A stretch of DNA of 64,000 nt, from contig JAHBUV010000001.1 in the NCBI GenBank assembly GCA_019637915.1, positions 1,582,565 through 1,646,564 on the forward strand. The letters run 5' to 3'. The stretch comes from Pseudobdellovibrionaceae bacterium (lineage in GTDB: Bacteria > Bdellovibrionota > Bdellovibrionia > Bdellovibrionales > Bdellovibrionaceae). The position numbers and the translations under genes were made by a program. The notes below the pieces were generated by a model. It worked only from the letters and a program-made list of their open reading frames with translations. It ran no database searches and was not told the DNA's origin. Of the stretch, positions 22,792 through 28,929 are shown in pieces (position 1 is the first letter of the stretch; every line of letters starts with the position of its first letter).

Positions 22792-25455
<2,664 letters not shown>

Positions 25456-25507
25456 AGGCGACAGAATAGTCCTCACTTGCTGTCAGGTGCAAGAAAGCCC
25501 TGTTTTT

Positions 25508-25987
25508 TCAGAGACTTTTGGACTCGCCGAGTTGCCTGATTCCCTCGTACGTGGCGATCGCCACCGAGGTCGAAAGATTCAAACTGCGGGCCGGCCCCAA
25601 GAGGGGGATTTTCACCGCCTGATCTGCGTTGCGTCGAACGAGTTCCGGATCCAGCCCTTTGGTTTCTTTTCCGAACACCAGCCAGTCGCCGGGCTGATAT
25701 CGGGCTTCGGTGTAGAGCCGCTTCGCCTTGGTGGAAAAATAAAAAACCCGTTTCGGATCCTCGATTTTCTCCTGCCATTCCTCGAGCGTGGCATGATGGA
25801 ACCAGGTGAGGTGCTGCCAATAATCGAGGCCGGCGCGTTTCAAGGTGCGGTCGCTGATCTCGAAGCCCAAACGCCCCACGAGGTGCAGTTCACAGCGGGC
25901 CGAAACGCAGGTGCGCCCGATGTTCCCCGTGTTCTGCGGGATCTCCGGTTCAATCAGGACAATGCGGAAAAGGGAACTGCTACCCAA
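25508..25987 (-). CDS. trmL: tRNA (cytidine(34)-2'-O)-methyltransferase TrmL
   Basis: 159 residues, the family length. SPOUT-class motifs are VLIEPEIPQNTGNIGRTC, LVFGKETKGLDPEL and IPLLGPARSLNLSTSVAIATYE, which form the trefoil-knot SAM site. It methylates the wobble ribose of leucine tRNAs. The predicted start is TTG (25987), overlapping the end of the upstream gene by eight bases, so translation is probably coupled. Confidence 0.92.
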   Translation of the reverse strand: MGSSSLFRIVLIEPEIPQNTGNIGRTCVSARCELHLVGRLGFEISDRTLKRAGLDYWQHLTWFHHATLEEWQEKIEDPKRVFYFSTKAKRLYTEARYQPGDWLVFGKETKGLDPELVRRNADQAVKIPLLGPARSLNLSTSVAIATYEGIRQLGESKSL

Positions 25988-26582
25988 GATGACGAACGAC
26001 CTCTTGACCGAATTTGGACAACGCCAACCGACGTCCCTTGTCCACGATCAGATCAAGGTTCATCAGCTCACGGTACAGGCTCATATCATTGATCGGCACG
26101 ATTTCACGCCCGGTGGCGGCACCGAGGCGCATGAGGTAGGTGCGTTGACGCTCGGTCAATTTGTCGGTCAGCGCCGGGTCTTCCCGCAAAGAGCGTTGCC
26201 AGTCCCCGTCCTCCAAAGGACGCGCCGTTCCCGGCAATTTTTTGGGATTCAAATAATAAACCCAGGCCCGAACGGGCTGGTCCGCCCCGTCCGCCAGAAC
26301 CTCCACCTCCTCGCGGCGGTGCAGGCCTTTTTCCGGCTCCAGGCGGGAGCATCCGTGGAATTCATCGAGTAAATTGATCAGCAAATCCGAATGCTTAACT
26401 GAAACAAGCTGCCCCCGGACGGCGCTCGAGCCGCCTTTCAACAAGACCGGATAACCGACCTTCAGGCGCCAAGCGGTGGCGCGGATCAGGGCCCCCGTGC
26501 TGGCTTCAATCATATCGGCGATCTTCGACCAGTGGACCATACCTTCCGACATGGCACCGAACACGAAAAAGCGCGTCGTCAT
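25980..26582 (-). CDS. Gamma-glutamylcyclotransferase-like protein
   Basis: 200 residues. The start FFVFGAMSEGMVHW resembles the FVYGTLxxG glycine-binding loop of the GGCT/BtrG fold, with VKHSDLLINLLDEFHGC in the place of the LDxxEG block. The C-terminal 60 residues are helical and extra. The ATG at 26582 has GGAGGGGG upstream; the open frame extends further but without a signal. It could cut gamma-glutamyl peptides or amines; the catalytic Glu position is not certain, so the call is at fold level. Confidence 0.6.
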   Translation of the reverse strand: MTTRFFVFGAMSEGMVHWSKIADMIEASTGALIRATAWRLKVGYPVLLKGGSSAVRGQLVSVKHSDLLINLLDEFHGCSRLEPEKGLHRREEVEVLADGADQPVRAWVYYLNPKKLPGTARPLEDGDWQRSLREDPALTDKLTERQRTYLMRLGAATGREIVPINDMSLYRELMNLDLIVDKGRRLALSKFGQEVVRHLG

Positions 26583-26697: not shown

Positions 26698-27054
<357 letters not shown>

Positions 27055-27096: not shown

Positions 27097-28512
27097 ATGA
27101 AAGCGCAAGAGGCGATCAATTTTGCGAAGGAAAAAGGCGCCAAGATGGTGGACTTCAAGTTCTGCGACATGGTCGGGACTTGGCAGCACCTGACGATTCC
27201 GATGGGCGAACTGTCCCTGGAAACCTTCGAGCAAGGCGTGGCCTTCGACGGCAGCTCCATCCGCGGCTGGAAGGGCATCGAAGAATCCGACATGGTCCTC
27301 CTCCCGGATCCCGCCACGGCGAAGATCGATCCTTTCATGCAAGTCCCCACCCTCTCCCTGATCTGCGACGTGGCCCTGCCGGAAACTCTCGAGGCTTACG
27401 ACCGCGATCCCCGCCAGGTGGTGAAAAAAGCCCTCGCGTACATGCAATCCACCGGCGTCGCCGACACGGCTTTCTTCGGCCCCGAGGCCGAATTCTTCGT
27501 GTTCGATGACGTTCGTTACGAACAAACCAACAACAGCGGCTTCTACATGGTCGACTCGTCGGAGGGCACCTGGAACACGGGCCGCGACGAAGAGGGCCGC
27601 AACCTCGGCTACAAACCCCGCCACAAAGAGGGCTACTTCCCGGCCCTGCCGACGGACTCCATGCACGATCTGCGCACGGAGATGTGCCTGGAGCTCGACC
27701 GCCTGGGAATGACCGTCGAACGCCATCACCATGAAGTCGCCTCCGCCGGCCAGATGGAAATCAATTTCCGCTTCGACAGCGCCGTCAACATGGGCGACAA
27801 AATGCAGTGGTTCAAGTATGTCGTGAAAAACGTCGCCCGCCGCCACGGCAAAACCGTGACCTTCATGCCGAAACCGCTTTTCGGCGACAACGGCTCGGGG
27901 ATGCACCTGCACATGTCGCTGTGGAAAAACGGCCAGAACCTCTTCGCCGGGAACAAGTACGCCGGCCTCTCGGAAATGGCCCTTTACTACATCGGCGGCA
28001 TCCTGAAGCACGCGCCCGCCCTGTGCGCCTTCATCAACCCGACCACCAACAGCTACAAACGTTTGGTGCCAGGCTACGAAGCGCCGATCAAACTCGCTTA
28101 CTCCTTCAAGAACCGCTCGGCCGCCGTTCGCATCCCGAACTCGGGCCCGAACCCGAAAGCCAAGCGCATCGAGTTCCGCACGCCGGATCCGTCGGCGAAC
28201 ATTTACCTCGCCGAAGCCGCGGCCCTCATGGCCGGTCTTGACGGAATCATCAACAAGATCCATCCCGGCGACGCGCTCGACAAGGACATCTACGGCCTGC
28301 CCCCGCAGGAAGCCGCGAAAATCCCCTCGATTCCCGCCTCCCTCGAGGAAAGTCTCGCGGAGCTGCAGAAAAACGGCGGCTTCCTGATGAAAGGCGACGT
28401 TTTCACGCAGGATCTGATCGACACCTGGATCGGCTACAAAACCGATCGGGAAATCCGCCCCGTGCAGCAGCGCCCGGTGCCCTACGAATTCCACTTGTAC
28501 TACGATATCTAG
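27097..28512 (+). CDS. glnA: Glutamine synthetase type I
   Basis: 471 residues. Catalytic and metal-binding blocks are visible: [58 protein letters not shown] and [28 protein letters not shown] holds the Tyr that is adenylylated in type I-beta enzymes, so the activity is likely controlled by covalent modification together with P-II. It forms glutamine from glutamate and ammonium. AGGAGG precedes the ATG. Confidence 0.97.
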
Positions 28513-28542
28513 GCCGTTAATTTTGGTTGAAGAGGTGATCAT

Positions 28543-28929
28543 ATGAGCGATGTGCGCAACTTCATGGGTTATTTGTGGTTCCGGCAGGAAGACGGTGTCG
28601 TCACCATCGGGATCAACGAAGAAGGCCTCGAGGATTTCGAAGAGATCTCTTCCGTGGAACTGCCCCCGGAAGGCGAGAAAATCGAAGCGGACGTCGTTCT
28701 GGGCACCATTGAAACCGACGACGGTCCTTTGGATATCTATTCGCCCGTCGACGGCACCGTGCTGGAAGTGAATTCCCAGGTCGTCGACGAGCCCTCCCTG
28801 ATCCAGGAAGAGCCCTACGAGGAAGGCTGGCTCATCCGCATCGAAACGGATGATGTGGCGGACGATGAGGACGAAGAAGAGGATGATGATGACGAGGATG
28901 AAGAAGACGACGAGGACGACGACGAATAG
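28543..28929 (+). CDS. GcvH-like lipoyl-domain protein without the lipoyl lysine, with an acidic tail
   Basis: 128 residues. The core (10-101) follows glycine-cleavage H protein: VELPPEGEKIEADVVLGTIET, DIYSPVDGTVLEVN and EEPYEEGWLIRIE. The lysine of ESVKA that carries lipoate is replaced by Asp60 in IETDDGPLDIY. The final ~25 residues are almost all Asp/Glu. Lipoylation is therefore not expected, and the protein may be a binding or regulatory domain. It follows glnA by 30 bases, in the glnB-glnA transcription unit, with no other glycine-cleavage gene nearby. Confidence 0.8.
   Translation: MSDVRNFMGYLWFRQEDGVVTIGINEEGLEDFEEISSVELPPEGEKIEADVVLGTIETDDGPLDIYSPVDGTVLEVNSQVVDEPSLIQEEPYEEGWLIRIETDDVADDEDEEEDDDDEDEEDDEDDDE

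Follow-up and report, generated by a model that had tools for sequence, protein, structure and literature searches.

Why does a gene for an H-protein of the glycine cleavage family lie directly behind the genes for P-II and glutamine synthetase, and what can its product do with Asp at the position of the lipoylated Lys? This question is raised by a locus in the window, which is the whole stretch of 64,000 nucleotides analysed here from a Pseudobdellovibrionaceae bacterium. The gene and its product are called gcvHL and GcvHL below. The features of the locus are listed in Table 1.

Table 1. Positions of gcvHL, its notable sites and its neighbours in the window
Feature	Position	Strand	Basis
secA, conserved neighbourhood	22792..25476	-	also adjoins the locus in relatives
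trmL-type SpoU methylase gene, conserved neighbourhood	25508..25987	-	loci of relatives
GGACT-domain protein gene (AIG2-like), conserved C-terminal part, divergent neighbour	25980..26582	-	loci of relatives
glnB, P-II protein	26716..27054	+	Pfam, sequence
glnA, type I glutamine synthetase with adenylylation-type DIYGLPP motif	27097..28512	+	Pfam, sequence
AAGAGGTGAT, resembling a ribosome-binding site, 5' of the gcvHL ATG	28530..28539	+	sequence
gcvHL, Lys-less GcvH paralogue, 128 aa	28543..28929	+	ORF, Pfam/NCBIfam scores, homologues
Leu11 codon, at the conserved HEW-motif Glu position of true GcvH	28573..28575	+	alignment
Hairpin E57-T-D-D-G-P-L-D64 in place of ESVKAxSD	28711..28734	+	alignment
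Asp60 codon	28720-28722	+	sequence
Acidic tail, residues 103-128	28849..28926	+	composition and AF2 model

An H-protein without the lipoyl lysine

GcvHL matches Pfam GCV_H (PF01597) with 92 bits (E 3.4e-26; cut-off 22.2). Its AF2 model, built on a four-row alignment, has a mean pLDDT of 79.8 and resembles solved H-protein structures at a TM of about 0.7-0.75. In the alignment, E-S-V-K-A-x-S-D of true GcvH corresponds to E57-T-D-D60-G-P-L-D64, and Asp60 occupies the lipoyl Lys position. The earlier note had described an H-protein (lipoyl) fold with Asp60 in place of the modified Lys, and the Pfam score, the alignment and the model match all bear this out. Two further descriptions in it also hold: the acidic tail, given as about 25 residues, consists of 26 residues, 24 of which (92%) are Asp or Glu, and the gene starts 30 bases after glnA. 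The tail is modelled at low confidence and is likely disordered. The net charge of the core is -23, versus -14 for the true GcvH of the same genome. Homologues in other genera, about 70-79% identical, preserve the frame. Because of these homologues and the class-wide presence of the family, the frame is not a product of chance.

The true gcvH of this genome, which encodes the Lys, is on the same contig about 0.86 Mb away (C1:2467348-2467701). It is this gene that gcvT adjoins, and the gcvT link is absent from gcvHL. Third copies of GcvH are seen in two relatives. One (L065; G006:C1:2627873-2628229) is adjoined by a Fur-like regulator and retains the Lys (ESVKNIHD), and the other (L123; G030:C5:181079-181438) has Arg for Lys (ESVRQIHD).

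Among 43 aligned GcvHL members, position 60 is Asp in 30, Gln in five, Glu in five, Asn in two and Ser in one. Conservation of Asp60 in relatives had been proposed as a check; what is conserved in all 43 is the absence of Lys, whereas Asp itself is shared by 30. Position 61 is Gly in 42 members, and 39 have Leu or Ile at position 63, which is Ser in GcvH. The HEW-motif Glu, which lines the aminomethyl pocket of pea H-protein, is retained in only four of the 43 members. Positions 58, 60, 61 and 63 as well as 7, 27 and 29 distinguish GcvHL from GcvH, and W12, G23, P68, G71, E75, N77 and W96 are invariant in GcvHL. Three members, which belong to a different order within the class, contain ETKDG or ETRDG, in which the basic residue is placed one position earlier. 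Since Lys is missing throughout at position 60 and positions 61 and 63 are nearly constant, the hairpin is rebuilt and conserved, not decayed, and the invariant residues preserve the fold. Judged from these residues, the lipoyl site is absent and GcvHL is unable to act as a lipoyl carrier.

GcvHL thus shares with GcvH (PF01597; TIGR00527; NF002270) the fold, the core length and the structural Trp, Gly, Pro and Asn, but it lacks the lipoyl Lys and usually the HEW Glu, has the rebuilt hairpin, is hyperacidic, is encoded away from gcvT and gcvP, and misses the cut-offs of both NCBIfam GcvH models (85.3 versus 117 and 81.2 versus 115.85). TIGR03077 (not_gcvH) and NF045810 (GcvH_rel_desulf) are likewise named as GcvH-related families outside the equivalog. 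GcvHL belongs to neither of them, with scores of 45.8 and 37.3 versus cut-offs of 144 and 150.

GcvH-L of Firmicutes (PDB 5a35) and LbpA of sulfur oxidation are, like GcvHL, paralogues of H-protein with roles outside glycine cleavage. Their genes are located with lipoate ligases, whereas gcvHL is not: lipoate ligase, macrodomain and Hdr genes are absent beside gcvHL, and its neighbours are secA, trmL, the GGACT gene, glnBA and a SpoVR cluster. GcvH-L acts through a lipoylated Lys. The same is described for LbpA (PMC6067878). In contrast, no lipoylatable Lys is present in the 43 GcvHL members.

Descent of GcvHL and a second lysine-less family

A search with the family alignment covered 242 genomes of the phylum, 107 from the class Bdellovibrionia and 135 from outside it. 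GcvHL was found in 92 of the 107 with matches of 113.7 bits or more and in none of the 135, where the best match was 110.6 bits or lower; such presence and absence counts depend on genome completeness. The outside matches that were inspected (L116 and L117) are of the Lys-bearing type. In the tree, true GcvH is separated from a single group that holds all GcvHL rows; the support is 86/86, which is moderate and based on only 96 columns. The tail part of the alignment carries no meaning. Based on this tree and distribution, GcvHL is an old GcvH paralogue, ancestral to the class Bdellovibrionia, vertically inherited and lost in some members.

The losses include several small genomes and a few genomes with type I glutamine synthetase (GSI). 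A degenerate short copy with the hairpin TIRGADGYIEI (G045, L072 4757-5071) is still placed directly after glnA. Such losses and degeneration, including those in small-genome members, would fit a decaying, functionless pseudo-copy of gcvH. This is highly improbable in view of the intact frames and invariant residues across the 92 genomes, and of the conservation of both the new hairpin, including Gly61, and the gene position.

One relative is a Bdellovibrionaceae MAG. In G036, which is very probably the model predator B. bacteriovorus HD100, gcvHL is directly behind glnA. The open-access literature yielded no paper about a GcvH-like protein of Bdellovibrio, about Bd0267 (a locus tag that is a guess) or about a gcvH that follows glnA, and the gene is not mentioned in the main text of a Tn-seq paper (PMC6561027).

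Another family of H-proteins has a similar appearance. Its first member, L034:9968-10465 (JAITQT010000086.1), lacks the lipoyl-Lys motif and has a long Asp/Glu C-terminal tail. The family, which also includes L084-L103, belongs to a deltaproteobacterial group and is widespread among relatives of the genome of L034. As in GcvHL, the hairpin lacks an ESVKA motif and the C-terminal tail is long and rich in Asp and Glu. Unlike GcvHL, these proteins form a separate clade (support 100/99), keep the C-terminal region of GcvH, and have icd and cobS as recurrent neighbours, with another arrangement once seen. Three of them (L100, L101 and L103) have a Lys near the hairpin tip, outside an ESVKA motif. 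No paper on this family was found in the open-access literature. If the tree is right, an H-protein would have turned into an acidic protein without a normal lipoyl site at least twice. The L034-type protein is the sole GcvH-type protein found in its genome, where no true GcvH was detected; this suggests that H-folds without the Lys need not serve glycine cleavage.

The link with glutamine synthetase

The 60 relatives searched are of two kinds. One has GSI, and the other lacks GlnA and has in its place only a protein about 640-780 aa long. This protein is regarded as type III glutamine synthetase (GSIII), an assignment confirmed by Pfam in G008, deduced elsewhere from the length and a partial match, and based on a weak match only in G053. 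GlnE is confined to the GSI kind, and so is P-II with few exceptions, one of them, a weak one, among the non-GSI relatives that keep GcvHL. Within the order, the set of GSI, P-II and GlnE has repeatedly been exchanged for a lone type III enzyme, as seen in these 60 relatives.

GcvHL does not follow this division. It is present in 21 of 25 near-complete GSI genomes (the degenerate copy in G045 counted as present) versus 24 of 25 near-complete non-GSI genomes, and there is no positive association (Fisher p = 0.35). Four complete GSI genomes (G039, G041, G048 and G057) lack it. Mapped onto the GcvHL tree, the type of glutamine synthetase changes about eight times, which is an estimate because this gene tree is poorly resolved.

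Where a GSI genome has both genes on one contig, gcvHL nearly always comes directly after glnA; G051 has one intervening gene. Non-GSI genomes have gcvHL at an unchanged position, next to trmL, secA and the divergent GGACT gene. Members from the other order have plsY upstream of gcvHL and no glnA nearby. The earlier note had suggested looking for the glnA linkage in relatives; it is near-constant in GSI genomes, but absent in about half of the relatives, and these keep GcvHL. Because gcvHL keeps its place after glnBA has gone and is not associated with GSI, the linkage is positional, and regulatory at best. The simplest history is that glnB-glnA ancestrally lay between the GGACT gene and gcvHL and was removed wherever a lineage acquired GSIII.

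In several families of the class, a SpoVR-DUF444 cluster is located near gcvHL on its opposite flank (L043:11-3413, L057:3-1424 and L068:2686-5246), with a PrkA-like end in some. The GGACT protein, encoded divergently to gcvHL across the class, ends in an extension that is strongly conserved, LTERQRTY..RLGA..GREIVPI...LYRELMNL.LIVDKGRRLALSK.G. The GGACT gene is usually adjacent, but an obligate partnership with GcvHL is rejected, as several genomes (e.g., G011, G023, G044, G047, G055 and G058) retain GcvHL although the search revealed no GGACT gene in them.

These observations bear on the proposal of the earlier note that GcvHL may bind GlnA or P-II. The note itself had named homologues without glnA linkage as a refutation, and such homologues exist. 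The proposal does not stand as it was put, since GcvHL is kept in genomes without GSI, nearly all of them also without P-II. As a main role, a dedicated partnership with GlnA or P-II is contradicted by co-occurrence: P-II and GlnE follow GSI, and GcvHL does not. In a wider form, in which GcvHL binds or regulates glutamine synthetase, possibly of any type, or P-II, the idea is unlikely. The constant position behind glnA in GSI genomes speaks for it, as does G008, the only non-GSI genome seen with an adjoining glutamine synthetase gene, where a type III glnN is located 104 bases downstream of gcvHL (L076:1751-4479), an odd arrangement for chance. Against it, GcvHL is present in nearly all near-complete non-GSI genomes, where the synthetase gene is elsewhere except in G008; complete GSI genomes exist without GcvHL; GcvHL persists in genomes that lack P-II; and GSI here already has its normal partner, GlnE.

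A regulatory contribution of the position can be considered. A scan of the glnA-gcvHL gap for promoters and terminators revealed no promoter-like site, a result that carries no weight either way. Given the gap of only 30 bases, gcvHL is probably co-transcribed with glnBA where glnBA is present. Such co-transcription would make the level of GcvHL track nitrogen supply in species bearing glnBA.

Possible functions of GcvHL

It can be proposed, with a probability of roughly 55%, that GcvHL is a binding module which has lost the carrier function and has no dedicated role with glutamine synthetase. GcvHL would be a non-catalytic, non-lipoylated, hyperacidic protein-binding module derived from an H-protein. 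The reasons to consider it a binding protein are that it is conserved, stand-alone and highly acidic, and that its hairpin is rebuilt and conserved. A partner might dock on the face of the former lipoyl arm, where the conserved Gly61 and Leu/Ile63 contrast with Ala and Ser of GcvH, and on the acidic surface and tail. The long acidic tail is mostly limited to the family of the window and a few others, and it cannot therefore be the core of the function. As a guess, the likeliest partners would be proteins that already bind H-proteins, such as the P- and T-proteins of glycine cleavage or the enzymes of lipoate assembly, for which GcvHL could be an arm-less competitor or stabiliser. Since none of the near-complete Bdellovibrionales genomes among the 60 searched lacks true GcvH, co-occurrence is unable to test a role in glycine cleavage.

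A narrower idea is that GcvHL works as a decoy or chaperone-like factor for the glycine cleavage complex or for lipoate assembly: it would fill the site at which GcvP, GcvT, LipA or a ligase receives the H-protein, but would not accept the cofactor. This is possible but doubtful. The H-fold and the invariant structural residues listed above are in accordance with it, and the titles of solved structures include H-protein complexes with T-protein, LplA and lipoyl synthase. However, residues around the arm, the expected contact area of such enzymes, are among the most divergent, and one genome with the second Lys-less family has no other GcvH. The binding module without a dedicated role with glutamine synthetase is still favoured. 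The scaffold with a new role, the other suggestion of the earlier note, is the preferred class of explanation.

It can be speculated, at long odds, that at the root of Bdellovibrionia a lipoyl-carrier fold was converted to a cofactor-free regulator. Through non-covalent contacts with glycine cleavage, with lipoate assembly or with either type of glutamine synthetase, it might relay the state of nitrogen or one-carbon metabolism, and a second bacterial group might have undergone a similar conversion independently.

Most likely, GcvHL is a real binding protein and not a dedicated partner of glutamine synthetase, as it is kept where glnA has been lost. Adjacency to glnA should be read with caution, as it may reflect a frozen position and no functional link. 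GcvHL is a class-wide, unstudied gene that Pfam places in the glycine cleavage H-protein family, a job it cannot do. It represents a clean natural case of a swinging-arm carrier fold minus its cofactor, and is tractable in a genetically accessible strain.
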